A stretch of 64,000 nucleotides of DNA. Source: Tricholomella constricta. Its lineage: Eukaryota > Basidiomycota > Agaricomycetes > Agaricales > Lyophyllaceae. The notes under the pieces are model-generated. The model did no database searches, was not told the DNA's origin, and saw only the letters and a program-made list of their open reading frames with translations. Below, in pieces: positions 20,262 through 58,834 of the stretch. The number at the start of each line of letters is the position of its first letter. Within the stretch, counting starts at the first letter, position 1. Where the stretch lies: assembly GCA_013368375.1 (NCBI GenBank), contig JAACJP010000049.1:124001-188000 (forward strand). Direction: 5' to 3'. The position numbers and the translations under genes were made by a program.

Positions 20262-20539
20262 TGTTGGCCCGGTGGTTATTCTCATCGCTTACATCATTAG
20301 TCGCACGTGACTTCCAATTCCTTTTGCTTCCGTTTTTGCGTCCGCATCCTCAGCCGTCTTTCTTCATTACTACGACGCTGAGGATGTAAGTCATACCTAC
20401 AGTCACTATTACCTTCCTTTTTACTGATAGACTTGTAGTTCTACTTGTCTTGTTCTAGGTATATAAAATGACAGCCGTCTTTCTTCATTACTACGACGCT
20501 GAGGATTTCTACTTGTCTTGTTCTAGTTCCAGGCCATCA
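20262..20539 (+). repeat. Copia-1 5' LTR
   Basis: 278 bp, TG..CA-type ends. Contains the duplicated leader unit described at 20351-20526 and a TATATAAA at 20460-20467 between the two leader copies. Confidence 0.93.
20351..20526 (+). promoter_or_regulatory. Copia-1 leader: intron-bearing copy followed by its pre-spliced copy
   Basis: Segment A1 (20351-20385, 35 nt) is followed by a GTAAGT..TAG intron (20386-20438, 53 nt, with CTGAT branch-like site) and by pyrimidine-rich B1 (20439-20458). After a 13-nt linker GTATATAAAATGA, A2 (20472-20506) runs directly into B2 (20507-20526). A2 equals A1 and B2 equals B1 base for base, so the second unit is the first with the intron exactly removed. B1 ends in AG followed by GT, giving a second potential intron, 20459-20526 (68 nt). 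The 3' LTR repeats the arrangement. Confidence 0.85.
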
Positions 20540-26466: not shown

Positions 26467-26744
26467 TGTTGGCCCGGTGGTTATTCTCATCGCTTACATC
26501 ATTAGTCGCACGTGACTTCCGATTCCTTTTGCTTCCGTTTTTGCGTCCGCATCCTCAGCCATCTTTCTTCATTACTACGACGCTGAGGATGTAAGTCATA
26601 CCTACAGTCACTATTACCTTCCTTTTTACTGATAGACTTGTAGTTCTACTTGTCTTGTTCTAGGTATATAAAATGACAGCCGTCTTTCTTCATTACTACG
26701 ACGCTGAGGATTTCTACTTGTCTTGTTCTAGTTCCAGGCCATCA
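26467..26744 (+). repeat. Copia-1 3' LTR
   Basis: 278 bp, nearly identical to the 5' LTR. Preceded by a weak polypurine tract (GATGATGGGG). Followed by AATAT (26745-26749). Confidence 0.93.
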
Positions 26745-39768: not shown

Positions 39769-40194
39769 TTACTGCGCGGCCCAATAGACCGCGAACTCGT
39801 CCTCTGTGCCTTCAGGGTTTGATTCGATCCAAGCGCGCTTGGCTATACTCCTGATATACAGTATATTAGAAGGACAATGTGACGTAAAGAAAACATACTT
39901 TGGGTTATTTCCACGGCCGGCGGAAGCTTTCTTTTTCTTCTTCATTACTGGCGCGATTGCGCTGACCGTGGGTTGGATGTCATGCAGGGATCCACTCTCG
40001 GCACTAGGGTTCGCGGCTGTATCGATAGGGGTGCAATGTTTTGGAGGTGGGTTGGAAGGCTCGGTCTCCGAGTCACGGGGGGTGGGCATGTTGTCGAGGC
40101 CAGGCAAGCTTGGTGATGAGGACAATGCATCGGAAGGGACAGTAGTCGGGGTGACGGCTGGGAGTAATGATGCAGTGTCGGAGCGAGGGGTAAC
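39769..40194 (-). pseudogene. split host gene, 3' part (exon 5 second half and exon 6)
   Basis: The last part of a six-exon minus-strand gene now spread over 39769-59814. Exon 5 resumes at 40194 after Copia-2 and ends at 39899; a 48-bp intron leads to exon 6 (39850-39769). The product ends KKKKKASAGRGNNPK, then SIAKRAWIESNPEGTEDEFA and VYWAAQ. Exon lengths over the whole gene (204, 158, 691, 14, 336, 82 nt) sum to 495 codons in one frame once both insertions and one copy of each target duplicate are ignored. The middle of the protein carries LDKEDYPDVKYWTKKEY and TWADASLEAHNYF, with WKAHMIATENYPSWYSKH, a pattern I recall from multicopy Agaricomycete proteins of unknown role. The basic, Ser/Pro-rich tail suggests a nuclear protein. 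Confidence 0.8.
40190..40194 (+). repeat. target-site duplication of Copia-2, left (GTAAC)
   Basis: Matches GTAAC at 52102-52106. Confidence 0.92.
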
Positions 40195-40535
40195 TGTTGG
40201 AATTCGGTGAGCCACCGACGACACTCTTTGTGATCGGCCCAACCACCACGGACTCTTTATTTACTTCTTCCTTTATCTACTTACACAAAGGACACTTTAC
40301 ATATATATACCTACATTACCTACGGTACACCCTCAGTCACTTATACCAGACTGAGGGTGAGTCTCTCTTACCTTACATGAACGGATCGTAACTAACGTAC
40401 TTACAGGTCTTATCTTATCTTCCCGTTTAGGTACGATCGAATAAAGTCACTTATACCAGACTGAGGGTCTTATCTTATCTTCCCGTTTAGACTCACTCAG
40501 TCTACATAACCGGTGTACAGGCTTGATTTCTAACA
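40195..40535 (+). repeat. Copia-2 5' LTR
   Basis: 341 bp. ATATATATA at 40301-40309 lies about 26-34 nt upstream of the leader unit at 40335, a normal TATA-to-start distance. AATAAA occurs at 40440-40445. Confidence 0.93.
40335..40490 (+). promoter_or_regulatory. Copia-2 leader: intron-bearing copy followed by its pre-spliced copy
   Basis: A1 (40335-40356) is followed by a textbook intron (40357-40406, GTGAGT..CTAAC..TTACAG, 50 nt) and by pyrimidine-rich B1 (40407-40430, ending TTTAG). After a 14-nt linker carrying AATAAA, A2 (40445-40466) runs straight into B2 (40467-40490). A2B2 equals A1B1 exactly, minus the intron. B1's AG is followed by GTACGA, so 40431-40490 (60 nt) could be a second intron ending at the AG of B2. 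The 3' LTR repeats the design. Confidence 0.87.
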
Positions 40536-40546
40536 GGTTATGGGCC
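40536..40546 (+). promoter_or_regulatory. Copia-2 primer-binding site
   Basis: GGTTATGGGCC directly follows the 5' LTR, the same site as in Copia-1, complementary to a CAT-anticodon stem-loop (initiator tRNA half). Confidence 0.7.
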
Positions 40547-40749
40547 ATCGTTGAACACCTACGTGTCAACGATTACAGGAATCCAGCACCGACACCGGAG
40601 AAACCGGATCGCACTCCAATCCGAGAACCGATCTCATCAGTGCGTCGTTATCTAATCAGAAACGCGCGCGTCTCGAGCTCTTTGTCTCCAGAAACACATC
40701 CCCCACACAACGTCGTCGTCCCCATCGGACGAAAACAACATATCCTACA

Positions 40750-43700
40750 ATGGGCACTATCCAACCGCTCGAAGGCAACATCCTATCCGTCCCCGCTTTG
40801 GCAATTCGCACACAGTGGACAGGCGACATTTTGCACAAAGACAAAACCGACTTTAAATCTTGGGAACGGCGTTTCAGGAATTTCCTGTCCATGAATGGGC
40901 TCCTCACGTACGTTTTCAGCCCCCTCACCATCCCCCCCAACCCCAGCATGGAACCACGCGCCTATGGCAACTACGTAACCAACGGCGCACTCGCCGTCGC
41001 AGCCCTCGAACACGCGGTCCACGAATCCCTGTTGGACTTTATCGACCCCTCCCAGGGAGCAAAGCTCTGCTACGAGAACGTCAAGGCCCACTGCATGGGT
41101 GCGGGGCCCATTAAACAAGTGGCAAAAATCCGAGAGGCTTTATCCACTTACTGTTCCACTAACACCCCTACCGTCGACACTGCTACTAACATCTGCAAAC
41201 TCGTCGACGCAGCCTTCGACATGGGAACCATCGATCGCGACCTGTTCAAATGCATCGCAATACTGAACAGCCTGAATGACAAGGCGTTCGACAACGTCCA
41301 ATCTAACCTCTCTCGCGATCTCGCTAACTCCACAAAGTCAAACCCATTCACCTCCACCCACATCGTCAAAATACTCGGCTATGAGGACACCCTCGCATCC
41401 TCCAAACGACAGATGCAAACGCGCGACACCGCGCTGGCCGTGAAAGACACCGAACACCCGCACGGACATGCCCCCGACGCTACATGCTGCGTCCTCTGCT
41501 ACACGGCGCGCAAACCCTGCAAGACGCACACCAAACGCTGGTGTATTCGCCCCGGAGGAGGCATGGAAGGCAAGACGATTACCGAGTCAATCGCCGCACG
41601 CAGAGCCGAGCAAGGAGGAGCTGGAAAGAGCGGATCCGGTGGAGGAGGAGGGAGTGGCGCAAAAAAGGACAAAGAGAAAATACCCATTCCGTGGATAAAC
41701 AGCAGCGGAAAGGCATGCATCGCGTACGTATCGCCCGACGATGTTGCCGCAGGAGGCACCGAGAGCATCAAGCCCGAATTTGCAGGCCTCGCGTCATCCC
41801 CGCTCCCACAAGGCCCAGTCGCGCCCTCACGTGAAGCGGCATGGTTCACCTTCGAGAATCCACCCCAAGCTTCCATCGATTGGACCACACACTCCAAGCC
41901 AGTCGACGATTCAGCGTTCACCATCATTAATCCACTCCAGCAGAAGCGACGCACTCCGATCTCCGTCGACGACTACCCTTTCTTCGTCGACTCCGGCGCC
42001 ACAGTCCATATCTCACCGGATCAAAGTGACTTCCTCACACTCAAATCAACCCCATCGCGATCCATCACCGGCGTCGGAGGATCATCCATCGCTGCACTGG
42101 GAATCGGCACGATCCGCCTCCACATCGCGAAAGGTGCCACCATCACCCTCGAAGACGCGTTATACGTCCCCAATTCCACCGTCCGCCTCATATCCGTCAG
42201 CGCGCTCTCCCTCAAAGCCGATACCATCACCCACTTTGACAAAGACGGCGTTAAGATCCACGATAAATCCACAGGCGCGTTCATAGTCGGGGGGCCACTC
42301 ATTCCGAACCAACGACTATACTCCCTTCAAATCCATTCCATTTCCGCAGATCACGCCCTCTCCGCCCAACACAAACCCAATCTCGAGTCTTGGCACCGCT
42401 GTCTTGGTCACGCAAATTACCAAACCATCACCGAGATGGCCAAGGACGGAACGATCCCAGGTATGCAGCCCTCGCTCCTGTCGAAACCGATGAAATGTGA
42501 CACATGCATTGTCGGTAAACAGACCAGGACACCAGTTCCGAAGATACGAGCTGAGGGACCAGGGCATCGGGCAACGAGGAAGCTGGGGATCATTTGGATA
42601 GACTTAACGGGACCTTCACCTGTACAGTCGCGCTACGGGAACAATTATATGATGAACCTTGTCGATGATTACACGAGTAAACCTTGGTCCATCCCCCTCC
42701 AACGCAAAAGCGACGCACTGGAAGAACTGAAGGCTTGGGAACAAGCGCGATTCGTTGAGACGGGACTTAAAGTGGGCATATATCGCACCGGACATGACGG
42801 CGAGCTCGCCAGCCATCAAATGGACGAATGGCTCAAAACTCAAGGGTCCGCCCAACAATTCGGTGCCCCATACACATCGGCGCATATGGGACGCGTAGAA
42901 CGAATGCATCGAACCCTCATGAACAAAGCACGCACAATGCGCATCGAGGCCGGATGCCCCCCCAACATGTGGGATGACTTTTATCTCACTGCTACCCACC
43001 TCCATGAGAAAACCGCCACCAAGTCATTAAACGGCATCACTCCATACGAGAAATGGTACGAACGGAAACCCGACTACTCGTACATGAGAGAAATCGGATG
43101 CAAAGCATTCGTATTAATCCTCAGCCGCCATAATCCAAAGATTTACGAGCGCTCGATCGAGTGCGTCCTAATCGGTTACAATCCCCGAGCCAAGGAATAC
43201 AGATGCTATGAGCGAAAGACTGGGAAGATCTATAGCTCGTACCACGTCCGGTTCCTTGAAAGCCATGACGGCCATCCTCCCCCATCCATCGAACCTCCCG
43301 TAACTGAAGCTACCACAATGGAGGAAATCCGAAACACAGCAACCGCCGAACCAGTCACCTGGGACGACGACGAGGACTTCATACCAGCCTACGAAGATCC
43401 CGAGCCAGAAGCACACATACCAGATGAACCGGAGGCCGCACCTGAAGAAGTGGAGGATGTTCAGCGCTCAAACAGACAACGACAACCAACACGAAGAGCT
43501 GACCCAGGAAGCGCCATACCCACACGCACCGAACGAGCCGTTGAGGAGTCAAAAGCAAGCGCCGAACGCGTCAGAGCAGCCAAAGAGGAACGACGGAACG
43601 CCCAACTGACCGAGCCGAGGATCCCGGATCAGGCACCTACCGAAATCACCGAGATCAATGATGCACTTCTCGATCATGATCGAGTTCTGGCCGCCGCAAT

Positions 43701-44715
43701 CGAATCTACTGGGTTTGACCCGACATCAATAGAATTCGAAGACGAGCCTAGAACCTGGGAAGAAGCAAAGGCGTCCACAGACGCCGCACACTGGGCAGAG
43801 GCATACCGCGATGAGCTCAAATCCCTCAAAGATATGGGTGTTTACAAACTAATACCACGATCTGAAGTCCCACAGGGTCACAAAGTCAGAAAGGGGCGCC
43901 CAGTATTCAAGATTAAGCGCGATGCAGACGGCAAAATCGACCGCTTCAAAGTACGGCTAGTATTTAAGGGGTATGAACAGATATACGGCAAGGACTACAC
44001 GAAAACTACCTCACCAACAGCGCGAATGGAATCCTGGAGGGTTCTCTTACACATCGCAGCCTCGAAAGGCTGGCACGCCATGCAGATAGACGTCAAAACG
44101 GCCTTCCTCTACGGCCTCCTTCCCTGGGACGAAATACAATACATGGAGCAGCCGCGAGGATTTGAAGAGGAAGGAAAGGAAGACTGGGTCTGGTGCTTGG
44201 TACGTGGCCTATACGGAATGAAGCAGAGCGGCAGAATCTGGAACCAGACACTGAACGACTTTATGGTCGGTCGCGGGTTCACGCGCCTCGCCTGTGAATC
44301 ATGCGTCTACTACAGGAAGTCAGACACCGGCACCGTTATCGCTGCCGTGCACGTCGACGATTTCCTGTCCATCGCCACCAGCGAGGCCGAGAACGAACAG
44401 TTCAAAAAGGAGCTCCGCGAGGTATGGACGATATCTGATCTGGGCACTCCCCGGTTCGTCGTAGGAATCGCCGTAGAATGGGATCGCCCAAACAAATCCG
44501 TTAAATTATCGCAAACCGCCCTCATTGACAAAATCATTCACCTATTCCGCCAACAACACGCTTCACCACTTTCCCTACCCATGGAGAAGGGCCTACAGCT
44601 CCGACGTGTTGACCGATCGAAGCTGCCACCAGAGGAACAAAAAACCATCGAGAAACTACCATACCGGTCCCTAGTCGGGTGCCTTCTCTACCTTGCCATA
44701 TCCACGCGCCCCGAC
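40750..44715 (+). CDS. Copia-2 gag-pol polyprotein, first part (continues 51113-51715)
   Basis: An ATG start gives 1322 intact codons before Gypsy-A. Domains in order: gag (KSWERRFRNFLSMNGLLTYV), a Cys/His cluster CCVLCYTARKPCKTHTKRWC in place of a normal zinc knuckle, protease FVDSGATVHIS, GAG-pre-integrase WHRCLGHANY..CDTCIVGKQ, integrase (IWIDLTGP, GHDGELAS, GRVERMHRT), reverse transcriptase (KGRPVFKIKRDADGK, DVKTAFLYGLLPWDEIQYM, AAVHVDDFLSI) and the RNase H start (LAISTRPD). The frame resumes in phase at 51113, giving 1522 residues in total. The protein would copy and integrate the element; at present it is interrupted. Confidence 0.93.
44711..44715 (+). repeat. target-site duplication of Gypsy-A, left (CCGAC)
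   Basis: Matches CCGAC at 51108-51112. Confidence 0.92.
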
Positions 44716-45219
44716 TGTCAGGGGAACTCTCGTTCACGCTCTCCGACGCTCACAGATCGTTCCCCGACTCACGCGCTCGCCCCTGACTGACCGATCGCGA
44801 TCCCGACCCGACGCTCCGACCCAAGCGTCGGTGTACATACTTACTCACTTCCTGTCGCTTCCCCTCACTCCCCGCGCGCGCCCGACGCCGATCCCGACCA
44901 CCCGACATCCCGACGTCGGCTGCCCCGCCTCGTGCCCGTACCCTGGGCCACGAGGATCGGACAGCGTCGGGAACGTGTCCATACACGAGCCGCACACCAT
45001 TCGTTACTATTACATGTACAGTACACTCTGGAGGACCGGCCCTCACGTCCTACACTCGTATATAGTCGGCCCCCTGGCATTTGGGAATCCTTTACACTAT
45101 TCTCTTCGGATTCCCCCTTGCCAGGTAAGCCTTACTTACATTCGTTACTGTACATCAATATAACTTCGGATTCCCCCTTGCCAGTGCGATAGCGCTCCAC
45201 TGTAAGGGTTGCCCTAACA
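44716..45219 (+). repeat. Gypsy-A 5' LTR
   Basis: 504 bp. TATATA near 45059-45064 is about 30 nt before TTTACACTATTCT (45091-45103), the inferred transcript 5' end. Confidence 0.95.
45104..45184 (+). promoter_or_regulatory. Gypsy-A leader duplication with AG/GT splice junction
   Basis: A 21-nt unit at 45104-45124 (CTTCGGATTC..TTGCCAG) is repeated exactly at 45164-45184. The first copy is followed by GTAAGC, a good 5' splice site; the second ends a pyrimidine tract with CCAG, a good 3' splice site. Splicing 45125-45184 (60 nt) would give the same sequence that already exists downstream of the second copy. AATATAA lies in the linker. Present in both LTRs and in Gypsy-B. Confidence 0.75.
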
Positions 45220-45221
45220 GC

Positions 45222-45234
45222 AGAATAGTGTAAA
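45222..45234 (+). promoter_or_regulatory. Gypsy-A self-priming primer-binding site
   Basis: AGAATAGTGTAAA, two bases after the 5' LTR, is a perfect 13-nt reverse complement of TTTACACTATTCT at 45091-45103, the inferred 5' end of the transcript. This is the arrangement of Tf1-type elements, which prime with their own RNA 5' end instead of a tRNA. Confidence 0.85.
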
Positions 45235-45345
45235 CCGGAGACCCGACGAAACCGACCGATCAGCCTCCGCGCCGAAACACGTGTCTGCTACACGCAACCC
45301 GTCCAGCGCGCGCCTGCTCCGATCGTCGCCCAGTCCCGTCTCGAG

Positions 45346-46566
45346 ATGTCCGACTTCGGTGAATTTGACACGCCTCCGTCTCCTGCTGCGCTCACGCCAG
45401 AGGAACGACTGGTGAGCCTTGAAACCGCAATGTCGGCTCTCTCACAATCCAACACCACCAACTCGGCCACCATGGACCGCATCGCCGCTCTTTTAGATAC
45501 CATCGTTTTGGGGAACCCCTCCGCTGCCTCCCCAGCAGCACCTACGACCCCCGCGACGCCGGCGCAGCCCCTGCCGACGTCCCCTCCCCTTCCGCGATCG
45601 GGATCGCACATTCGGCCGTCGCCCCCTCCCGTGTACGACGGCGCTCGATCGGGCGGCCGCGCCTTCTGGAACGCGTGCCAGCTCTACTTCTCCCTGAGCG
45701 TCGGACAGTTCGCCGACGACCACGCCCGAATCAGCTGGGTGTTGTCATACATGCAACACGGTCGCGCCGCCGACTTCGTCGGTCGGGTCTTTCAGTATGG
45801 GTCGGTAAAGCGCGCATTCCCGACCTGGAAGGACTTCGCGTCGAACTTCGAAAAGGAGTTCTTCCTGTTCGACGAAGTCGCCGACGCTGCGCTCACCCTT
45901 GAGTCGACAGCGTACTTCCAGAATGGGCGCACCATCGACGAGTACATCGACTCGTTCAAGGCGCTGTGGATCAAGGCCGACTACCCAGACGGCCGCCATC
46001 TGGTCCTCAAATTCCGTCGGGGCATGGACCCGAAGCTCTCAAGGAGGCTTGGGAGCATCACCACGGGTCGGCCCGACGACTCCAAGATTGAGGACTGGCT
46101 AGCGATTGCCCGCTCCCAGGACTTCATCATGAGGACCGAGGAGGACTTCCACCGTCGGTCGGCTCCGACAGTTCCGACTGCGAGTCGCCCGACTGCCCCC
46201 ATTCCGATGCCTGTGGTCGCGCCCATGCTCCGATGGCGACCCACTGCCCCACCGACCGCTCCCGTTCGTGTGTCGGCACCGGCGCACTTTCTCAGCACGC
46301 CCGTGACACCGTCTCTTCCCCCAGGTGTCCCTATGGACATCGACCGGCTCCGCGGACGTCCTGTTCAGGACGACACCTGTCGTCGATGCAAGCAGCCGGG
46401 GCACTTCTGGCGCGACTGCCCAAAGCGCTTTGACCTGCGCCACATCATGCCAGAGGAACTGGATGAGCTGATCATGCAGCTACTGGCGCGCAAGGATGCG
46501 ATCCCAGCTGACCCGACTCCCGAGTCGGCCGACCTGACCGCCTTGGCCACGGAAGAGGATTTTTAG
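45346..46566 (+). CDS. gag: Gypsy-A gag
   Basis: 406 residues from ATG. A Pro/Ala-rich N-terminus precedes a retrotransposon gag core (FWNACQLYFSLSVGQFADDH, WKDFASNFEKEFFLFDEV, LKFRRGMDPKLSRRLG), then a zinc knuckle CRRCKQPGHFWRDC and an acidic tail ending TEEDF. It forms the particle and packages RNA. The stop TAG at 46564-46566 follows TTT; pol continues in the -1 frame. Confidence 0.93.
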   Translation: MSDFGEFDTPPSPAALTPEERLVSLETAMSALSQSNTTNSATMDRIAALLDTIVLGNPSAASPAAPTTPATPAQPLPTSPPLPRSGSHIRPSPPPVYDGARSGGRAFWNACQLYFSLSVGQFADDHARISWVLSYMQHGRAADFVGRVFQYGSVKRAFPTWKDFASNFEKEFFLFDEVADAALTLESTAYFQNGRTIDEYIDSFKALWIKADYPDGRHLVLKFRRGMDPKLSRRLGSITTGRPDDSKIEDWLAIARSQDFIMRTEEDFHRRSAPTVPTASRPTAPIPMPVVAPMLRWRPTAPPTAPVRVSAPAHFLSTPVTPSLPPGVPMDIDRLRGRPVQDDTCRRCKQPGHFWRDCPKRFDLRHIMPEELDELIMQLLARKDAIPADPTPESADLTALATEEDF

Positions 46567-46567
46567 T
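46555..46567 (+). promoter_or_regulatory. candidate -1 frameshift site between gag and pol
   Basis: Gag ends GAG GAT TTT TAG. In the -1 frame the same bases read GA TTT TTA GTC GCA CAA and continue into pol without a stop. The run of five T lets the TTT codon re-pair after a one-base slip. No downstream pseudoknot was worked out. Gypsy-B keeps the same bases. Confidence 0.5.
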
Positions 46568-46577
46568 CGCACAACGG

Positions 46578-49500
46578 GTGAAAAGTACGCCCCCGTTGTC
46601 TAGTCGTAATCGGTTCGCCCCCCTATCTGTAGAGTACCCCAGTATACTTAATATTGCTGCTACTTCTACGGGCGAACCAATCGACGAAGACGTACAATCC
46701 TCTCCTGACCAAACGCCATCTCCTTCGGTCGCTCCGACCGAGCCGACTGTACCGTCGCGTCGCGGACTACCGCGCTGGGAAAAGCGACTGCCCCGTCGCT
46801 TCGTGATCGCCGCCTCCCCCGACTCCTTATCCCTGTCGCTCAAGGTCGAGCTCGAGACCACCGACACCCAAGAGACGCATTCGCTCGCTGCCCTCGTTGA
46901 CAGCGGGGCATCGGCCTGCTTCATCAACACTGCCTTCGTTGAAAAGCACAAGCTGAAGACGCGACGGCTGAATCGCCCGACACGTGCCTACAATGTTGAC
47001 GGAACCCCTAATGAGGCGGGTGCCATTGAATACGTCGTGGACGCAGTCTTACGTTACGACGGTCACTCCGAGCGCGTTCTGTTCGCGGTCGCGGGTATTG
47101 GAAAGCAGGATCTCATTCTCGGATTCACCTGGCTCCGAGACCACAACCCCGACATTGATTGGGCAACGGGAAAGGTGAAAATGAGTAGAGCGCCGACACG
47201 TTGCGACACCTGCAAGGTTGAAGTCAAGGAGGAGCGTCGTTCACGCACCAAGCTGCGAGCCGCCATTCGGGCTTGTCGGGCGGAAGGCATCCCGACAGTC
47301 GAGCCCGACCTGCGAGCCCCGACCTGCCCCTACGTCGAAGACGACTCCGACACCGACGAGTTCCTCCCCTACACTCCGATCATGGAGGAACCCGATCCAG
47401 AGTCGGACGACTTCCTGGTGGAGACCTTCCTGAACGGCGATCGCATCTTTGCGACTGCGATCCACCCCCCTCCGACCGAAATGCACATTCGCGCCAGTCA
47501 AACGACATCGCAGCGACTCGCTGAGGCGCACGCCGCGAACTCTGCGCCTAAGTCATTCCGCGACGCCGTTCCGACCCACCTCCACGACTTTGAGGACGTT
47601 TTCTCCAAGGTCGCGTTCGACGAACTCCCCGATCGCAAACAGTGGGATCACGCGATTGAGTTGGAGCCAGGCGCTTCGCCGTCCGGCACCAAAGTCTACC
47701 CACTGTCGCCAGCGGAGCAAGTCGAGCTCGATGCGTTCCTCAAGGAGAACCTCGAGTCGGGTCGGATCCGTCCGTCGAAGTCGCCCATGGCTTCGCCAGT
47801 GTTCTTCATCAAGAAGAAGGATGGTGCGCTCCGGCTGGTGCAGGACTATCGGACGCTCAACGCGCTGACGGTGAAGAACCGGTACCCACTGCCGCTCATT
47901 AGCGAACTGGTGAACAACCTCCGCGGCGCGCGGTACTTCACCAAGCTGGACGTCCGATGGGGGTACAACAATGTTCGGATCAAGGAAGGCGACGAGTGGA
48001 AGGCAGCGTTTCGGACGAACCGCGGTCTCTTCGAGCCGCTCGTCATGTTCTTCGGCCTCACGAACAGCCCCGCCACATTCCAGACCATGATGAATGACAT
48101 CTTCCGCGATCTGATCGCCGAGGGTGTTGTTTGCGTGTACCTCGACGATATCTTGATTTACACCAAGACTCTCGAGGAACACCGTCGGGTCGCGCGACTC
48201 GTGCTGGACCGACTCCGCGAACATAAGTTGTTCCTAAAACCCGAGAAATGCGAGTTTGAACAGACCAAGGTCGAGTATCTTGGGCTGATCATCTCGCACG
48301 GGCAAGCGGAAATGGATCCGGTCAAGGTCGCTGGAGTGTCGGAGTGGCCGGCGCCGAGGAACAAGAAAGAGGTGCAAGCGTTCTTGGGCTTCACCAATTT
48401 CTACCGACGGTTCATCCAGGATTTCTCGCACCACGCCCGACCCCTGTTTGATTTGACGGGCAAGGACGTTGCCTGGCGCTGGGAAGCGTCGGAGCAGTCG
48501 GCCTTTGACCTCCTGAAGTCTGCGATCACGTCGCGACCGGTGCTTGCATTCCCCGACGACGACCGACCGTACCGCATCGAAGCTGACTCGTCCGACTTCG
48601 CGACGGGCGCGGTCCTGTCGCAAGAGTCGCCGTCCGATGGCAAGTGGCACCCGGTCGCGTTCTACTCGAAGAGCTTGAACGCAGTCGAGCGGAACTACGA
48701 GATCCACGACAAGGAGATGCTGGCGATCATCCGGTCTCTGGAGGAGTGGCGACATTTTGTGGAAGGCGCAAAGCACAAGGTGGAGATCTTGACCGACCAC
48801 AAGAACCTTGAGTACTTCCTCACCGCGAAGAAACTCAATCGGCGGCAAGCCCGCTGGTCGCTCTACCTTGCCAACTTCGACTTTACCCTCCACCACCGTC
48901 CGGGACGCAGCATGGGCAAACCCGACGCCCTGTCGCGTCGCGCTGATCACGGCGACGGAAGTGGCGACAATGCCGACATTGTGCTCCTCAAACCCGAGTT
49001 CTTCGCGATTCGCGCGACCGAGGGTCTGGCACTGGTCGGAGAAGAAGACGATGTGCTGAAAGCGATCCGCAAGGGCAATCGCGACGGTGCACAGGAGGAC
49101 GCGGTCGCGAAAGCGGCACAACTGGTCAAGGCATCCAAGACTGCCGGTCGCTCCCTACGCTTTGGCGAGTGGGGGGAGGAAGGTGGTCTGCTCACGTTCC
49201 GTGGACGGATCTATGTCCCGAACGTTCCTGACCTCCGCCGACGCATTGTGGAGCAGCATCATGACTCCAAGGTCGCCGGTCACCCGGGTCGCTGGAAGAC
49301 GCTCGAGCTGGTGTCGCGCAACTACTGGTGGCCCCAGATGTCACGCTTCATCGGTTCATACACCAGCACCTGCGACATGTGCTTGCGCACAAAACCCCGC
49401 CGCCAACTCCCCGTCGGACAGCTGCAGCCGCTCCCAATTCCCGAAGGCCGATGGAATGTCGTATCAGTGGACTTCATCACCGAACTCCCCGAGTCCAATG

Positions 49501-50603
49501 GCCACGACGCGATCATGAACGTCGTAGATTCGGTCGGAAAGCGCGCGCATTTCATCGCATCGCACACGACCTGTTCGGCCTTGGGAGCCGCGAACCTCTA
49601 CCGTCGCCACGTCTGGAAGCTCCACGGTCTCCCAGGTGCCTTTGTCTCCGATCGAGGTCCACAGTTCGTCGCCGAATTCACGCGCGAACTGTACCGACTC
49701 CTGGGTATCAAGCTGTCGGCTTCGACGGCGTACCACCCGCAGACCGACGGACAGACCGAGCGTGTCAATCAGGAGCTGGAACAGTTCTTGCGGGTCTTCT
49801 GCAACGAGCGCCAGAACGACTGGGAGGACCTCTTGCCCGACGCCGAATTCAGTTACAACAACCATGTACATTCGGCGACACAGCAGACCCCTTTCTTGCT
49901 CGACACTGGTCGGCATCCGCGCATGGGCTTCGAGCCTCGTCGGGGCGCTTCCAAGAACGAGTCGGCCGACGAGTTCGTGGAGCGCATGAAGGAAGCACAG
50001 GAGGAAGCCAAGGCGGCGCTTTCAAAGGCCAAAGACGACATGGAGCGGTATTACAATCAGCGACACGCCCCGACACCCGACTACCAGCCGGGTGACAAGG
50101 TGTACTTGGACGCGACCGACATTTCTACGACCCGACCGTCTAAGAAATTATCGCATCGCTACCTTGGCCCTTTCGTCGTGCAAAGGCGAGTTGGCCCGCT
50201 CGCATACCGCCTCCTGCTGCCTCAGTCCATGAAACGCATCCACCCAGTCTTCCACGTCATAAAGCTTGTCCCCGCCGTCGCTGACCCAATCGAAGGTCGA
50301 CAGTCCGACCCTCCGCCGCCACCAGACATCATCGATGACGAACCCCACTACGAAGTCCACAAAATCCTCGACAGTCGCATCTTCCGCAAGAAACTTCAGT
50401 ACAAGATCTTGTGGAAAGGCTACGGCTATGAAGAAGCTTCGTGGGAGCCCCGGGAGAACGTCGCCGCACCCGACCTGGTTCGCAAGTTCCACCGCGACAA
50501 TCCTGATGCTGCGCGCCACATCCGTGGCATCTTCACTCTATCCCCCGCCGTCTTCGCCACCGTCACCCCGCACCGAGCCGTTGCGATTCAAAAGGGGGGG
50601 TGA
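46578..50603 (+). CDS. pol: Gypsy-A pol polyprotein with C-terminal chromodomain
   Basis: 1341 codons from the first start-like codon (GTG); translation probably enters by frameshift from gag a few codons earlier. Domains: aspartic protease (AALVDSGASACFINTAFVEK), reverse transcriptase (FFIKKKDGALRLVQDYRTLN, VMFFGLTNSPATFQ, VYLDDILIY), RNase H (FATGAVLSQE, EMLAIIRSLEEWRHF, ILTDHKNLEYF), integrase zinc finger (HHDS..CDMCLRTKP) and core (VSVDFITELP, FVSDRGPQFVAEF, YHPQTDGQTERVNQELE), then a chromodomain (VHKILDSR, YKILWKGYGYEEASWEPREN). The chromodomain is known in this clade to steer integration toward marked chromatin. The TGA stop abuts the 3' LTR. Confidence 0.94.
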   Translation: MKSTPPLSSRNRFAPLSVEYPSILNIAATSTGEPIDEDVQSSPDQTPSPSVAPTEPTVPSRRGLPRWEKRLPRRFVIAASPDSLSLSLKVELETTDTQETHSLAALVDSGASACFINTAFVEKHKLKTRRLNRPTRAYNVDGTPNEAGAIEYVVDAVLRYDGHSERVLFAVAGIGKQDLILGFTWLRDHNPDIDWATGKVKMSRAPTRCDTCKVEVKEERRSRTKLRAAIRACRAEGIPTVEPDLRAPTCPYVEDDSDTDEFLPYTPIMEEPDPESDDFLVETFLNGDRIFATAIHPPPTEMHIRASQTTSQRLAEAHAANSAPKSFRDAVPTHLHDFEDVFSKVAFDELPDRKQWDHAIELEPGASPSGTKVYPLSPAEQVELDAFLKENLESGRIRPSKSPMASPVFFIKKKDGALRLVQDYRTLNALTVKNRYPLPLISELVNNLRGARYFTKLDVRWGYNNVRIKEGDEWKAAFRTNRGLFEPLVMFFGLTNSPATFQTMMNDIFRDLIAEGVVCVYLDDILIYTKTLEEHRRVARLVLDRLREHKLFLKPEKCEFEQTKVEYLGLIISHGQAEMDPVKVAGVSEWPAPRNKKEVQAFLGFTNFYRRFIQDFSHHARPLFDLTGKDVAWRWEASEQSAFDLLKSAITSRPVLAFPDDDRPYRIEADSSDFATGAVLSQESPSDGKWHPVAFYSKSLNAVERNYEIHDKEMLAIIRSLEEWRHFVEGAKHKVEILTDHKNLEYFLTAKKLNRRQARWSLYLANFDFTLHHRPGRSMGKPDALSRRADHGDGSGDNADIVLLKPEFFAIRATEGLALVGEEDDVLKAIRKGNRDGAQEDAVAKAAQLVKASKTAGRSLRFGEWGEEGGLLTFRGRIYVPNVPDLRRRIVEQHHDSKVAGHPGRWKTLELVSRNYWWPQMSRFIGSYTSTCDMCLRTKPRRQLPVGQLQPLPIPEGRWNVVSVDFITELPESNGHDAIMNVVDSVGKRAHFIASHTTCSALGAANLYRRHVWKLHGLPGAFVSDRGPQFVAEFTRELYRLLGIKLSASTAYHPQTDGQTERVNQELEQFLRVFCNERQNDWEDLLPDAEFSYNNHVHSATQQTPFLLDTGRHPRMGFEPRRGASKNESADEFVERMKEAQEEAKAALSKAKDDMERYYNQRHAPTPDYQPGDKVYLDATDISTTRPSKKLSHRYLGPFVVQRRVGPLAYRLLLPQSMKRIHPVFHVIKLVPAVADPIEGRQSDPPPPPDIIDDEPHYEVHKILDSRIFRKKLQYKILWKGYGYEEASWEPRENVAAPDLVRKFHRDNPDAARHIRGIFTLSPAVFATVTPHRAVAIQKGG

Positions 50604-51107
50604 TGTCAGGGGAACTCTCGTTCACGCTCTCCGACGCTCACAGATCGTTCCCCGACTCACGCGCTCGCCCCTGACTGACCGATCGCGATCCCGACCCGAC
50701 GCTCCGACCCAAGCGTCGGTGTACATACTTACTCACTTCCTGTCGCTTCCCCTCACTCCCCGCGCGCGCCCGACGCCGATCCCGACCACCCGACATCCCG
50801 ACGTCGGCTGCCCCGCCTCGTGCCCGTACCCTGGGCCACGAGGATCGGACAGCGTCGGGAACGTGTCCATACACGAGCCGCACACCATTCGTTACTATTA
50901 CATGTACAGTACACTCTGGAGGACCGGCCCTCACGTCCTACACTCGTATATAGTCGGCCCCCTGGCATTTGGGAATCCTTTACACTATTCTCTTCGGATT
51001 CCCCCTTGCCAGGTAAGCCTTACTTACATTCGTTACTGTACATCAATATAACTTCGGATTCCCCCTTGCCAGTGCGATAGCGCTCCACTGTAAGGGTTGC
51101 CCTAACA
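50604..51107 (+). repeat. Gypsy-A 3' LTR
   Basis: 504 bp, no difference from the 5' LTR seen. Preceded by the polypurine tract AAAAGGGGGGG (50590-50600). Confidence 0.95.
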
Positions 51108-51112
51108 CCGAC
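51108..51112 (+). repeat. target-site duplication of Gypsy-A, right (CCGAC)
   Basis: Second copy of 44711-44715. Within Copia-2 these bases encode part of the Pro-Asp of STRPD. Confidence 0.92.
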
Positions 51113-51715
51113 ATCGCTTTCGCCGTCCAACAATTAACCCAGTTCGTCGACTCATACGCCGTCCCACACTGGAATGCAGCTATCCGCCTGGTACGCTATC
51201 TCAAAAGGACTCGTGACTTAAAGCTCCATCTCGGCGGCACACTTACAATGTCCCTACTAGGATTCACAGATTCCGACTGGGCTAACTGTCTTGACACCCG
51301 GCGAAGTATCGGCGGCTATACATGGAACTTAGGATCTGGAGCGATATCTTGGGCAGCTCGGAAGCAAAAGACAGTCGCTGCATCTTCATGCGAAGCTGAA
51401 TACATGGCGGCCTTTGAAGCAGCCCAGGAATGCATTTGGCTCCGCGCTCTCCTCAATGCGATCGGATACGACACCCCAGACCCAACTACAATTCTATGCG
51501 ACAACAACGCTGCGATAAACCTCTCCGAGGACCCACTGCTCCACGCCCGCGTCAAACACGTCGATATCAAGTACCATTTCCTCCACGAACGCGCACAGTC
51601 TAAAGAACTCGTCGTCAACTATATCAACACGAAGGACAACGTCGCGGACTTATTTACAAAACCCCTGGACCGCGGAACCTTCCAGCGTCTTCGCTCCCTG
51701 CTCGGCCTACAATAA
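51113..51715 (+). CDS. Copia-2 polyprotein, second part (RNase H)
   Basis: Continues from STRPD as IAFAVQQLTQFVDSYAVPHW, then TDSDWANCLDTRRSIGGYTW, SSCEAEYMAAFEAAQECIWL, CDNNAAINLSEDPLLHARVK, HVDIKYHF and NVADLFTKPLDR, ending LLGLQ and a stop. All RNase H acidic residues expected for Copia (D in TDSDWA, E in CEAEY, D in CDNNAA) are present. Confidence 0.93.
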   Translation: MAFAVQQLTQFVDSYAVPHWNAAIRLVRYLKRTRDLKLHLGGTLTMSLLGFTDSDWANCLDTRRSIGGYTWNLGSGAISWAARKQKTVAASSCEAEYMAAFEAAQECIWLRALLNAIGYDTPDPTTILCDNNAAINLSEDPLLHARVKHVDIKYHFLHERAQSKELVVNYINTKDNVADLFTKPLDRGTFQRLRSLLGLQ

Positions 51716-51760
51716 ACCCCAGGATTCCATTCGAGGAGGAGTGTCTTCGGTGAGGAGGAG

Positions 51761-52101
51761 TGTTGGAATTCGGTGAGCCACCGACGACACTCTTTGTGAT
51801 CGGCCCGGCCACCACGGACTCTTTATTTACTTCTTCCTTTATCTACTTACACAAAGGACACTTTACATATATATACCTACATTACCTACGGTACACCCTC
51901 AGTCACTTATACCAGACTGAGGGTGAGTCTCTCTTACCTTACATGAACGGATCGTAACTAACGTACTTACAGGTCTTATCTTATCTTCCCGTTTAGGTAC
52001 GATCGAATAAAGTCACTTATACCAGACTGAGGGTCTTATCTTATCTTCCCGTTTAGACTCACTCAGTCTACATAACCGGTGTACAGGCTTGATTTCTAAC
52101 A
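51761..52101 (+). repeat. Copia-2 3' LTR
   Basis: 341 bp, two changes from the 5' LTR. The GTAAC duplicate follows at 52102-52106. Confidence 0.93.
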
Positions 52102-52449
52102 GTAACTAGTTTAGCGACGGCTTCTGGGCACGAGAAAATGGTAGACCTGAACAAATATCAGTCAAAAATCCAGCTAAACAGAATAACGGACAGAGGATTG
52201 ATGATCTGTTTGCGCGCAATGAGTAAGTATTAGCGGCAAGAAACATGAATAGAACCTCACGAGCATCGGCGCCAGAGGTTCCTTCTCCTTCGGCTGTTCG
52301 TCGTCTGCTTGAGATTCCCGTGTCACTTCCGTTGGCTGGGCTTCGACCTTGGATTTCTTGGATTCCGGTTTGTGACGTAGTATTGATGGCGAAGGCGAGC
52401 GTTTGAGACGAGATTTCGATGGCGCCGTGTGCTCAGCCTTGACCTTCGC
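52102..52449 (-). pseudogene. split host gene, middle part (end of exon 3, exon 4, start of exon 5)
   Basis: Between the two retrotransposons. Exon 3 resumes at 52444 and reads KVKAEHTAPSKSRLKRSPSP then SILRHKPESKKSKVEAQPTE, ending PMLV's donor at 52260. A 14-nt microexon 52205-52192 (IINPL) follows, then an intron, then exon 5 from 52146 (STIFSCPEAVAKLV) into the Copia-2 target site. The microexon is needed to keep frame; skipping it creates a stop. The segment is rich in Lys/Ser/Pro with candidate nuclear localisation signals. Confidence 0.75.
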
Positions 52450-52953
52450 TGTTAGGGCAACCCTTACGGTGGAGCGTGATCACACTGGCAAGGGGGAATC
52501 CGAAGTTATATTGATGTATAGTAACGAAGGTAAGTAAGGCTTACCTGGCAAGGGGGAATCCGAAGAGAATAGTGTAAAGGATTCCCAAATGCCAGGGGGC
52601 CGACTATATACGAGTGTAGGACGTGAGGGCCGGTCCTCCAGAGTGTACTGTACATGTAATACTAACGAATGGTGTGCGGCTCGTGTATGGACACGTTCCC
52701 GACGCTGTCCGATCCTCGTGGCCCAGGGTACGGGCACGAGGCGGGGCAGCCGACGTCGGGATGTCGGGTGGTCGGGATCGGCGTCGGGCGCGCGCGGGGA
52801 GTGAGGGGAAGCGACAGGAAGTGAGTAAGTATGTACACCGACGCTTGGGTCGGAGCGTCGGGTCGGGATCGCGATCGGTCAGTCAGGGGCGAGCGCGTGA
52901 GTCGGGGAACGATCTGTGAGCGTCGGAGAGCGTGAACGAGAGTTCCCCTGACA
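52450..52953 (-). repeat. Gypsy-B 3' LTR
   Basis: 504 bp, starting TGTTAGGG and ending CCCCTGACA on the plus strand. Keeps the duplicated leader unit. Confidence 0.94.
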
Positions 52954-55900
52954 TCACCCCCCCTTTTGAATCGCAACGGCTCGGTGCGGGGTGACGGTGG
53001 CGAAGACGGCGGGGGATAGAGTGAAGATGCCACGGATGTGGCGCGCAGCATCAGGATTGTCGCGGTGGAACTTGCGAACCAGGTCGGGTGCGGCGACGTT
53101 CTCCCGGGGCTCCCACGAAGCTTCTTCATAGCTGTAGCCTTTCCACAAGATTTTGTACTGAAGTTTCTTGCGGAAGATGCGACTGTCGAGGATTTTGTGG
53201 ACTTCGTAGTGGGGTTCGTCATCGATGATGTCTGGTGGCGGCGGAGGGTCGGACTGTCAACCTTCGATCGGGTCAGCGACGGTGGGGACAAGCTTTATGA
53301 CGTGGAAGACTGGGTGGATGCGCTTCATGGACTGAGGCAGCAGAAGGCGGTATGCGAGCGGGCCGACTCGCCTTTGCACGACAAAAGGGCCAAGGTAGCG
53401 ATGCGATAATTTCTTAGACGGTCGGGTCGTAGAAATGTTGGTCGCGTCCAAGTACACCTTGTCGCCCGGCTGGTAGTCGGGTGTCGGGGCGTGTCGCTGA
53501 TTGTAATACCGCTCCATGTCGTCTTTGGCCTTTGAAAGCGCCGCCTTGGCTTCCTCCTGTGCTTCCTTCATGCGCTCCACGAACTCGTCGGCCGACTCAT
53601 TCTTGGAAGCGCCCCGACGAGGCTCGAAGCCCATGCGCGGATGCTGACCAGTGTCGAGCAAGAAAGGGGTCTGCTGCGTCGCCGAATGTACATGGTTGTT
53701 GTAACTGAATTCGGCGTCGGGCAGAAGGTCCTCCCAGTCGTTCTGGCGCTCGTTGCAGAAGACCCCCAAGGACTGTTCCAGCTCCTGGTTGACGCGCTCA
53801 GTCTGCCCGTCGGTCTGAGGGTGGTAGGCCGTCGAGGCCGACAGCTTGATACCCAGGAGCCGGTACAGTTCGCGCGTGAACTCGGCAACAAACTGTGGAC
53901 CTCGATCGGAGACGAATGCGTCGGGGAGACCGTGCAGCTTCCAGACGTGGCGACGGTAGAGATTCGCAGCTCCCAAGGCCAAACAGGTCGTGTGCGACGC
54001 GATGAAATGCGCGCGTTTTCCGACTGAGTCCACGACGTTCATGATCACGTCATGGCCGTTGGACTCTGGGAGTTCGGTGATGAAGTCGACCGATACGACA
54101 TTCCATCGGCCTTCGGGAATTGGGAGCGGTTGCAGCTGTCCGACGGGGAGTTGGCGGCGGGGTTTGGTGCGCAAGCACATGTCGCAGGTGCTGGTGTATG
54201 AACCGATGAAGCGCGACATCTGGGGCCACCAGTAGTTGCGCGACACCAGCTCGAGTGTCTTCCAGCGACCCGGGTGACCGGCGACCTTGGAGTCATGATG
54301 CTGCTCCACAATGCGTCGGCGGAGGTCAGGAACGTTCGGGACATAGATCCGTCCACGGAACGTGAGCAGACCACCTTCCTCCCCCCACTCGCCGAAGCGT
54401 AGGGAGCGGCCGGCGATCTTGGAAGCCTTGACCAGTTGTGCTGCCTTAGCGACTGCATCTTCCTGTGCGCCATCACGATTGCCTTTGCGAATCGCTTTTA
54501 CCACATCGTCCTCCTCTCCGACCAGTACGAGACCCTCGATTGCGCGAATCGCGAAGAACTCGGGCTTGAGGAGCACAATGTTGGCATTGTCGCCGCTTCC
54601 ATCGCCATGATCAGCGCGTCGTGATAGCGCGTCGGGTTTGCCCATGCTGCGTCCAGGACGGTGGTGGAGGGCAAAGTCGAAGTTGGCGAGGTAGAGCGAC
54701 CATTGGGCTTGCCGCCAATTGAGTTTCTTCGCGGTGAGGAAGTACTCGAGGTTCTTGTGGTCGGTCCAGATCTCCACCTTGTGCTTTGCGCCCTCAACGA
54801 AGTGTCGCCACTCCTCCAGAGACCGGATGATCGCTAGCATCTCCTTGTCATGGATCTCGTAGTTCCGCTCGACTGCGTTCAAGCTTTTCGAGTAGAACGC
54901 GACCGGGTGCCACTTGCCATCGGACGGCGACTCTTGCGACAGGACCGCGCCCGTTGTGAAGTCGGACGAGTCGGCTTCGATGCGGTACGGTCGGTCGTTG
55001 TCGGGGAACATGAGGACTGGCCCCGACGTGATCGCAGACTTCAGAAGGGCAAAGGCCGACTGCTCCGACTCTCCCCATTGCCAGGCGACGTCTTTGCCAG
55101 TCAAGTCGAACAGGGGTCTGGCGTGGTGTGAGAAGTCCTGAATGAACCGTCGGTAGAAATTGGTGAAGCCTAGGAACGCTTGCACCTCTTTCTTGTTCTT
55201 CGGCGCCGGCCATTCCGACACTCCAGCGACCTTGACCGGATCCATTTCCGCTTGCCCGTGCGAGATGATCAACCCAAGATACTCGATCTTGGTCTGTTCG
55301 AACTCGCATTTCTCGGGCTTTAAGAACAGCTTATGTTCGCGGAGTCGGTCCAGTACGAGTCGCGTGACCCGACGGTGTTCCTCAAGAGTCTTGGTGTAAA
55401 TCAAGATGTCGTCAAGGTACACGCAAACGACACCCTCCGCGATCAGATCGCGGAAGATGTCATTCATCATGGTCTGGAATGTGGCGGGGCTATTCGTGAG
55501 GCCGAAGAACATGACGAGCGGCTCGAAGAGACCGCGGTTCGTCCGAAACGCTGCCTTCCACTCATCGCCCTCCTTGATCCGAACGTTATTGTACCCCCAT
55601 CGGACATCCAGCTTGGTGAAGTACCGCGCGCCGCGGAGGTTGTTCACCAGTTCGCTAATGAGGGGCAGCGGGTACCGATTCTTCACCGTGAGCGCGTTGA
55701 GCGTCCGATAGTCCTGCACCAGTCGGAGCGACCCGTCCTTCTTCTTGATGAAGAACACCGGCGACGCCATAGGCGACTTCGACGGTCGGATCCGACCCGA
55801 CTCGAGGTTCTCCTTGAGGAACACATCGAGTTCAACTTGCTCTGCGGGCGACAGAGGGTAGACCTTCGTGCCAGTCGGTGACGCGCCTGGTTCCAATTCG

Positions 55901-56978
55901 ATCGCATGGTCCCACTGCTTGCGATCGGGAAGCTCGTCAAACGCGACCTTGGAGAAGACGTCCTCGAAGTCGTGGAGGTGGGTCAGAACGGCGTCGCGGA
56001 ACGACTTAGGCGCAGAGTTCGCGGCGTGCGCCTCAGCGAGTCGCTGCGATGTCGTTTGACTGGCGCAAATGTGCATTTCGGTCGGAGGGGGGTGGATCGC
56101 AGTCGCAAAGATGTGATCGCTGTTCAGGAAGGTCTCCACCAGGAAGTCGTCCGACTCTGGATCGGGTTCCTCCATGATCGGGGTGTAGGGGAGGAACTCG
56201 TCGGTGTCGGAGTCGTCTTTGACGTAGGGGCAGGTCGGGGCTCGCAGGTCGGCTCGACTGTCGGGATTCCTTCTGCCCGACAAGCCCGAATGGCGGCTCG
56301 CAGCTTGGTGCGTGAACGACGCTCCTCCTTGACTTCAACCTTGCAGGTGTCGCAACGTGTCGGCGCTCGACTCATTTTCACCTTTCCCGTTGCCCAATCA
56401 ATGTCGGGGTTGTGGTCTCGGAGCCAGGTGAATCCGAGAATGAGATCCTGCTTCCCAATACCCGCGACCGCGAACAGAACGCGCTCGGAGTGACCGTCGT
56501 AACATAAGACTGCATCCACGACGTATTCAATGGCGCCCGCCTCATTAGGGGTTCCGTCAACATTGTAGGCACGTGTCGGGCGATTCAGCCGTCGCGTCTT
56601 CAGCTTGTGCTTTTCAACGAAGGCAGTGTTGATGAAGCAAGCCGAAGCCCCGCTGTCAACGAGGGCAGCGAGCGAATGCGTCTCTTGGGTGTCGGTGGTC
56701 TCGAGCTCGACCTTGAGCGACAGGGATAAGGAGTCGGGGGAGGCGGCGATCACGAAGCGACGGGGCAGTCGCTTTTCCCAGCGCGGTAGTCCGCGACGCG
56801 ACAGTACAGTCGGCTCGGTCGGAGCGACCGAAGGAGATGGCGTTTGGTCAGGAGAGGATTGTACGTCTTCGTCGATTGGTTCACCCGTAGAAGTAGCAGC
56901 AATATTAAGTATATTGGGGTACTCTACAGATAGGGGGGCGAACCGATTACGACTAGACAACGGGGGCGTACTTTTCAC
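52954..56978 (-). pseudogene. pol: Gypsy-B pol, broken
   Basis: The frame starts opposite 56978 (KSTPPLSSRNRF) and runs through the protease. A single C is missing near 56255 (GAGCCGACC versus GAGCCCGACC in Gypsy-A), shifting the frame after GIPTVEP. The second frame (from about 56250) carries intact reverse transcriptase, RNase H and integrase landmarks, then stops at GGT TGA after VADPIEG (about 53257), where Gypsy-A has GGT CGA. The chromodomain (WKGYSYEEASWEPREN) remains as a separate open piece, 53148-52954. Confidence 0.93.
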
Positions 56979-56989
56979 CCGTTGTGCGA

Positions 56990-58210: not shown

Positions 58211-58321
58211 CTCGAGACGGGACTGGGCGACGATCGGAGCGGGCGCGCGTTGGACCGGTTGCGTGTAGCAGACACGTGTTTCGGCGCGGAGGCTGATCGG
58301 TCGGCTTCGCCGGGTCTCCGG

Positions 58322-58334
58322 TTTACACTATTCT
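58322..58334 (-). promoter_or_regulatory. Gypsy-B self-priming primer-binding site
   Basis: The same 13-nt site as in Gypsy-A (on the minus strand), still complementary to its LTR leader. Confidence 0.8.
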
Positions 58335-58336
58335 GC

Positions 58337-58834
58337 TGTTAGGGCAACCCTTACGGTGGAGCGTGATCACACTGGCAAGGGGGAATCCGAAGTTATATTG
58401 ATGTACAGTAACGAAGGTAAGTAAGGCTTACCTGGCAAGGGGGAATCCGAAGAGAATAGTGTAAAGGATTCCAAATGCCAGGGGGCCGACTATATACGAG
58501 TGTAGGACGTGAGGGCCGGTCCTCCAGAGTGTACTGTACATGTAATACTAACGAATGGTGTGCGGCGCGTGTATGGACACGTTCCCGACGCTGTCCGATC
58601 CTCGTGGCTCAGGGTACGGGCACGGGGCAGCCGACGTCGGGATGTCAGGTGGTCGGGATCAGCATCGGGCGCGCGCAGGGAGTGAGGGGAAGCGACAGGA
58701 AGTGAGTAAGTATGTACACCGACGCTTGGGTCGGAGCGTCGGGTCGGGATCGCGATCGGTCGGTCGGGGGCGAGCGCGTGAGTCGGGGAACGATCTGTGA
58801 GCGTTGGAGAGCGTGAACGAGAGTTCCCCTGACA
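58337..58834 (-). repeat. Gypsy-B 5' LTR
   Basis: 498 bp. Lacks one C in ATTCCCAAATG and five bases in the CACGAGGCGGGGC stretch compared with the other LTR. Confidence 0.94.

Follow-up and report, generated by a model that had tools for sequence, protein, structure and literature searches.

A leader split by a predicted intron and its intron-free copy share the long terminal repeats of many Tricholomella constricta retrotransposons and suggest a splicing-dependent strand transfer

In human immunodeficiency virus type 2 (HIV-2) and its simian relatives (SIV), a leader intron lies in R-U5 (the terminal repeat R and the 5' unique region U5), near the RNA 5' end; to our knowledge, the long terminal repeat (LTR) of these viruses holds no spliced copy of the leader, and the intron is not needed for strand transfer. 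In HIV-1, a downstream splice donor suppresses the 5' polyadenylation (poly(A)) site. The introns of the plant LTR elements Ogre and EVADE are internal, and their LTRs are not known to hold a spliced copy. Ogre and EVADE introns are functional and serve to produce subgenomic RNAs, and the loss of an inserted intron is the standard demonstration that retrotransposition passes through RNA (PMC12786077). Penelope-like elements can keep introns, for which either self-priming on an antisense template or the use of unspliced RNA has been proposed (PMC3846280). Here we describe, in a 64,000-nucleotide (nt) stretch of the genome of the agaric Tricholomella constricta (hereafter the window), a Copia retrotransposon, Copia-2, whose LTR carries a leader split by a predicted intron and, beside it, the intron-free version of the same leader. 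As LTR retrotransposons bearing predicted introns, elements of this kind resemble Ogre and EVADE (PMC12786077). In keeping introns through retrotransposition they would resemble the Penelope-like elements, which have another reverse transcriptase (RT) together with a GIY-YIG endonuclease and whose proposed ways of keeping introns involve no spliced copy in the repeat (PMC3846280). A GIY-YIG domain is not among the domain matches listed for Copia-2, where RVT_2 and rve are present instead.

The anatomy of the Copia-2 LTR can be read directly from its letters and follows the order U3-A1-i1-B1-linker-A2B2-U5, where U3 is the 3' unique region, A1 and B1 are the two halves of the leader, and A2B2 is their joined copy. 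The parts are as follows, a slash marking an exon-intron border.

40195-52101, + strand: Copia-2 element, with two 341-bp LTRs
40190..40194 (left) and 52102..52106 (right), + strand: target-site duplication GTAAC, 5 bp
40195..40535, + strand: 5' LTR, TGTTGG...TAACA, 341 bp
40302..40309, + strand: likely TATA box, TATATATA, beginning 33 nt upstream of A1
40328..40338, + strand: left arm of a predicted hairpin, 7 nt of U3 and 4 nt of A1, split by the likely start site
40335..40356, + strand: A1, leader exon 1, 22 nt, with the likely RNA 5' end at 40335
40349..40359, + strand: right arm of the hairpin, spanning the i1 donor GAGG/GTG, indicated by covariation
40357..40406, + strand: i1, predicted first intron, 50 nt, GTGAGT..CTAAC..TTACAG, missing from A2B2
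40407..40430, + strand: B1, exon 2, 24 nt, pyrimidine-rich, terminating in TTTAG/GT
40431..40444, + strand: linker, 14 nt, starting with GT and holding most of the AATAAA
40440..40445, + strand: AATAAA, likely poly(A) signal, which would be used in the 3' LTR; AATA occurs in most cluster linkers (see below)
40445..40466 and 40467..40490, + strand: A2, then B2
40445..40490, + strand: A2B2, the leader A1B1 repeated without its intron, probably the 3' R
40431..40490, + strand: i2, predicted second intron (linker, A2 and B2), 60 nt, GTACGA..CTGAG..TTTAG
40491..40535, + strand: U5
40536..40546, + strand: GGTTATGGGCC, resembling a primer-binding site (PBS), directly after the 5' LTR
51761..52101, + strand: 3' LTR, with the same parts as the 5' LTR at an offset of +11566
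51923..51972, + strand: i1 of the 3' LTR
51997..52056, + strand: i2 of the 3' LTR, with A2B2 at 52011-52056

A2B2 equals A1B1 without the GT..AG stretch, with 0 mismatches over 46 positions. The initial annotation of this DNA had pointed to just such an exact spliced copy next to an intron-bearing leader in the Copia-2 LTR, an observation that holds and that extends across the genome. In other respects Copia-2 shares the properties of Ty1/Copia elements: integrase upstream of RVT_2, direct TG..CA LTRs, a 5-bp target duplication and a PBS after the 5' LTR. Its open reading frame (40750-44703) matched GAG-pre-integrase (522-591), rve (610-709) and RVT_2 (1039-1280) in a profile search, the rve match (E 2e-5) falling below its curated cut-off. 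The putative PBS GGTTATGGGCC would match an initiator tRNA, and the GGTTATGGGC-type PBS of these elements resembles that of Drosophila copia. A conventional LTR contains its leader, or R, once; here the leader is present twice, split and unsplit. Whereas the ordinary R of Ty1/Copia elements is one colinear stretch, the 5' R would here be spliced together, and the 3' R would be an intron-free copy within a predicted intron.

A split leader with an intron-free copy is a general design, found in dozens of families of this 44-Mb genome. We counted it with a detector that looks for a GT..AG stretch, 35-100 nt long, with flanks that, once joined, recur no more than 120 nt away. An earlier, looser detector was also positive at simple and tandem repeats of the window (11-14 kb) and in a few other places, and the criteria were tightened; run on a single strand of each of 12 dinucleotide-shuffled 64-kb windows, the detector gave 0 matches. 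Chance or an assembly artefact is ruled out by this absence together with the 50 clusters obtained below. In a first sample of 60 loci, out of 72 matches to the LTRs of Copia-2 and of a second element of the window, Copia-1, the detector was positive on the locus's own LTR in 56. The four negative loci are L006, which is decayed, L010 and L020, which lack exactly linker-A2-B2, and L056, which ends 9 nt into A2; the detection in the L056 window is the neighbouring LTR of L018 and was counted once. Because this set is biased toward alike LTRs, we added an RT-anchored sample comprising 60 of 107 Copia RT matches, with windows 450-1350 or 450-1300 bases behind the RT that were chosen by protein and lay mostly at places without an LTR locus already sampled. 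The design was present in 45 of these 60 windows, 35 with the two-intron form of Copia-2 and 10 with a one-intron form, R1-[linker-R2], in which a doubled R has an i2-like stretch and no i1. Two further windows (L106, L110) hold a form without linker and second copy, and seven carry an LTR, or a start resembling one, that lacks the design (L086, L093, L094, and a single family in L073, L074, L109 and L120); an LTR was not identifiable by reading in the six windows L092, L095, L096, L104, L118 and L119. The L073/L074/L109/L120 family is a design-free Copia family whose plain LTR has a TATAAA-type site.

Over all sampled loci (L001-L120) there were 96 distinct detections, 92 of them with AG/GT at the B1 end; the four dropped were two antisense artefacts, the decayed L082, and L089, whose AG/GT lies beyond the range searched. 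The 92 distinct LTR copies fall into 50 clusters at 85% identity, with A of 15-37, B of 12-26, linker of 7-31, i1 of 47-59 and i2 of 56-70 nt. Scans for relatives of the design in other species, covering the viral_contigs collection only, returned none. Among the best 120 of 450 matches, the named protein relatives came from Termitomyces, Cyclocybe, Rhodofomes, Panaeolus, Dentipellis, Peniophora and Grifola, all Agaricomycetes.

The stretch made up of linker, A2 and B2 itself seems to be a second intron, a part that the initial annotation did not include. AG/GT stands where the B1 homology ends in 92 of the 96 detections; this was not a detector criterion, and its chance expectation is about 1 in 23 with 11 positions searched. 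The stretch begins with GT and ends with YAG in 45 of the 50 clusters, those without YAG being the decayed L038 and four families that lack U5 (L069, L098, L102, L116). The LTR of these four families ends at B2 (CA), and their i2 acceptor would be completed by the first G of the PBS. Although linker, A2 and B2 each vary, their sum has a standard deviation of 3.9 nt as against 8.5 when the parts are permuted, and 0 of 20,000 permutations were as tight, figures that, like those for the pairing below, are not strict probabilities because the clusters are related and fall into three register classes. CTRA (R, a purine) lies at the A2 end in 49 of the 50 clusters, 14-29 nt upstream of the acceptor, and B is pyrimidine-rich (mean 0.67). 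AATA occurs in the linker (plus 3 nt of A2) in 43 of the 50 clusters, against a shuffled mean of 13.2. In the one-intron rows, which comprise the ten Copia windows and a Gypsy family described below, CTRA lies 14-15 nt upstream of the acceptor in 7 of 11. In both L010 and L020, the 5' LTR lacks exactly i2 and its 3' partner LTR has it. These two loci, and L106 and L110, may derive either from an i2-spliced template or from a deletion between B1 and B2, which are direct repeats; we do not count them as proof of splicing because repeat loss yields the identical product.

A2B2 is also young. Over 20 LTR pairs, A1B1 and A2B2 differ at 8 of 2034 sites (0.39%), and the two LTRs of the same pairs, of which about 250-280 nt each were compared, differ at 31 of 5303 (0.58%); two of the pairs, L034/L035 and L036/L037, are nearly one element in two contigs. 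All 7 pairs without LTR differences in the compared part carry exact A1B1/A2B2 copies. Since A1B1 and A2B2 differ no more than the two LTRs do, A2B2 is, as judged from these differences, no older than the insertion that carries it, despite wide divergence between families. In 163 cluster comparisons, 943 of the sites changed in A were changed alike in both copies and 87 were not. Such agreement is expected of two copies made in a single round of reverse transcription and not of copies that evolved separately. A2B2 is exact in 69 of the 92 copies, with 33 mismatches in 4532 positions in total.

These observations can be joined in the following cycle, in which transcription would begin at A1. 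At the RNA 5' end, i1 and i2 would be spliced out, and since the poly(A)-like signal and A2B2 both lie within i2, they would leave this end together, giving cap-A1B1-U5-PBS. At the RNA 3' end, the last U3 bases, absent from the 5' end, would mask the i1 donor by base-pairing, so that i1 is retained, and the RNA would be cut and polyadenylated after AATAAA, within A2B2 and upstream of the i2 acceptor. The minus-strand strong-stop DNA, made on A1B1-U5 as template, would then jump to A2 at the RNA 3' end, and its extension through linker, B1, i1, A1 and U3 would produce U3-A1-i1-B1-linker-[A1B1]-U5, the parental LTR with A2B2 renewed. One-intron families would pass through the same cycle with R1-[linker-R2]. 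The initial annotation had proposed that A2B2 was copied from a spliced 5' end and A1-intron-B1 from an unspliced 3' end. That origin agrees with the low A1B1/A2B2 divergence and is kept here, and two parts were missing from it. Splicing of i1 alone would leave A1B1-linker-A2B2-U5, so that the LTR would gain a unit with every transfer onto A2B2, and removal of i2 would close the cycle exactly; nor did the scheme give a reason for the unspliced 3' copy, which a U3:donor hairpin would supply. We consider it probable that the doubly spliced 5' RNA end pairs with A2B2 at the unspliced 3' end and so rewrites A2B2 in every round. As in HIV-1, one LTR sequence would be handled differently at the two RNA ends by way of a splice donor; unlike HIV-1, the poly(A) signal would here leave with i2, and U3 would hide the donor at the 3' end.

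Two loci have unusual junctions. L060 (1480-1960) is a composite in which the full U3-A1-i1-B1-linker-A2B2 of one family is followed, after no more than 10 nt, by A1-i1-B1-linker-A2B2-U5 of a second family. The second-family part lacks U3 and the first A1 bases, as if strong-stop DNA from unspliced RNA had reached a foreign RNA 3' end. In L056, the locus's own LTR (match 1501-1710) stops 9 nt into A2, between partly repeated stretches of Gypsy-like coding sequence, a break located where an RNA 3' end would be expected.

The window itself contains two other elements of the design.

20262..20539, + strand: Copia-1 5' LTR, same part order, different letters
20386..20438, + strand: Copia-1 predicted i1, 53 nt
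20459..20526, + strand: Copia-1 predicted i2, 68 nt, including A2B2
26467..26744, + strand: Copia-1 3' LTR, same design, one A1/A2 mismatch
45125..45184, + strand: Gypsy i2-like stretch, 60 nt, containing the second R copy (LTR 44716-45219; R1 core 45104-45124, R2 45164-45184)
51013..51072, + strand: the same i2-like stretch in the Gypsy 3' LTR (50604-51107)

The Copia-1 LTR is unrelated to that of Copia-2 and yet identical in design. The Gypsy element (44716-51107) is inserted in the Copia-2 pol, with target duplication CCGAC, and both of its LTRs in the window have the layout R1-[GTAAGC..linker..R2]-U5, in which a 21-nt R core is duplicated within a 60-nt GT..AG stretch and a U3 arm can pair with R1 and the donor. 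Judged by its predicted parts, the Gypsy LTR takes the design beyond Copia in its one-intron form. This family is abundant, with at least 131 matches among 839 candidates, all of those scored being 98-100% identical. We found no design in 11 windows downstream of other Gypsy integrases, in which the presence of an LTR per window was not confirmed; L130, the single sense-strand match among the Gypsy-integrase windows, proved to be a tandem repeat. Two copies of the abundant Gypsy family, one of them within the Copia-2 pol, stand in opposite orientation at 44716-58846 and form a long inverted repeat. Elsewhere in the window, identical 168-nt direct repeats lie 4.8 kb apart (10052-10219 and 14891-15058), and 12100-14250 is dense in tandem repeats of CTCGAGAGACGAGAGA-like units, with 39 as one of several periods.

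Immediately upstream of A1 lie bases that can pair with the A1 end and the i1 donor, in Copia-2 as an uninterrupted 11-bp stem. The initial annotation had placed the likely RNA start at A1, in keeping with TATA-like sites 30-33 nt upstream of A1 in 22 of the 23 clusters, among the 50, that have one. Because of these TATA-like sites, the likely start site falls within the left arm of the hairpin; an RNA started in the 5' LTR would lose most of that arm, and the hairpin could form at the 3' end only. Covariation in this pairing was observed directly. With the register fixed by the A end alone, 352 of 429 U3 positions were paired with their donor-side partners; dealing left arms among families gave a mean of 269 and a maximum of 299 (0 of 5000 as high), and sliding them gave 167-198. 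Two-sided changes at exon position -1 comprise C-G in 30, A-T in 15 and G-C in 1, others occur at -2, -3 and -4, and the U3 partner of intron position +3 partly tracks G or A. The predicted folds of one-intron families join U3 to the i2 donor, as in GCATAC with GTATGC or in ACATACC with GGTATGT. Of the 11 rows tested, which include the window's Gypsy, 7 have a U3 pairing with R1 and donor above that of 95% of shuffles. We infer that the hairpin may be a switch between the two RNA ends, which is the weaker part of our case.

Several points weigh against the cycle and its switch. Splicing, start sites, poly(A) sites and the switch are all predictions from sequence. No TATA-like site was found in 27 of the 50 clusters, Copia-1 among these, and the Gypsy R1 core begins 45 nt past the TATA start rather than 30. 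Predicted donor accessibility is 0.31 without U3, 0.18 with U3 and 0.23 with shuffled U3, a modest effect; in 12 of the 50 clusters it does not fall with U3. The direct test of U3:donor pairing is the stronger of the two measures, and in it only 28 of the 50 clusters beat 95% of their shuffles. Among the one-intron rows, L097, L099, L100 and L107 are not above 95% of shuffles (L097 and L099 share the same R1 and linker), and L100, L105, L107 and the Gypsy have no CTRA near the i2 acceptor (4 of 11). Near the acceptor of the predicted i1, no more than 30 of the 50 clusters have CTRA. The identity figures given above for A1B1 and A2B2 lean high because the detector favours well-kept copies. Finally, the element of L052/L053 has the same A1/A2 mismatch in both LTRs; either A2 is not always wholly renewed, or that round introduced an error.

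The modest and generic accessibility effect also speaks for another reading of the hairpin, which would then be either an element of the start site or a structure of the DNA; i1 and i2 would still be spliced, and the 3' copy would escape in some other way, for instance by a poly(A) cut before the acceptors are read. CCTC/AGTC at the U3-A1 border does resemble the initiator, whose motif is TCAGT. Set against this, the pairing follows the donor's letters through three registers and the exon -1 changes, one-intron families and the Gypsy pair other U3 letters with R1 and the donor in the 7 of 11 rows noted above, and a cut within A2B2 would leave the i1 acceptor intact. We regard this reading as possible but doubtful.

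In the earlier scheme without a second intron, only i1 would be spliced, and A2B2 would be maintained by occasional jumps and repeat loss. A single intron suffices for the letters of A2B2, which are exactly the i1-spliced form. Each jump would, however, add a unit, and none of the 92 copies has its own third unit within 150 nt; the lone third copy that was flagged, in L060, belongs to the joined foreign LTR. The AG/GT border, the fixed length of linker, A and B and the position of CTRA would also go unexplained, and we consider this scheme quite unlikely. An ordinary DNA duplication of the leader, with gene conversion keeping the copies alike and i1 inserted later in the first, draws support from the ten Copia windows and the one Gypsy family that have both copies without i1. 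The initial annotation had set an order of this kind, second copy first and intron later, against its own scheme, and the duplicated R with an i2-like stretch and no i1 in these families lends that order some footing. Conversion would nevertheless carry i1 to the second copy, where it was found in none of the 92 copies, a count to be read with the bias that the detector would miss an LTR whose sole second unit had retained i1. Conversion would also need to act in every family to make the copies as young as each insertion, and duplication of this kind is very unlikely. That transcription instead starts at A2, with the second copy an ordinary R and A1-i1-B1 part of U3, is suggested by TATATAAAA in the Copia-1 linker and is hardly credible, given the position of the TATA-like sites before A1 and that such a start would not account for A2B2 being A1B1 in spliced form.

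In an RT tree (24 rows; weak backbone, midpoint root), at least six deep Copia lineages show the two-intron form, the five one-intron rows form one clade (support 100/99), and the design-free row is one long branch. The predicted i1 may have been gained later in R1 or lost in the one-intron clade; under the proposed cycle a gain in R1 would carry no cost, R2 being rewritten from spliced RNA. It is fairly likely that these elements belong to a large fungal LTR class, spanning at least six deep Copia lineages and Gypsy, with a 5' R assembled by the spliceosome, a U3 hairpin separating the RNA ends and rewriting by strand jump. The initial annotation knew of no LTR built in this way, and none was found in the open-access literature among the matches listed, subscription papers and preprints being outside that scope.

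If the cycle is true, introns in these LTRs would persist, unlike the usual intron loss of retrotransposed copies, because the element stores the split and the spliced form, each copied from its proper RNA end. The old problem of one poly(A) signal present at both RNA ends would be solved, the signal being intronic at the 5' end and the donor hidden at the 3' end. In these LTRs, spliced and unspliced sequences also come naturally in pairs, and the cycle makes single-base predictions for RNA reads in dozens of families. Host splicing would, in these elements, be a required step of reverse transcription.
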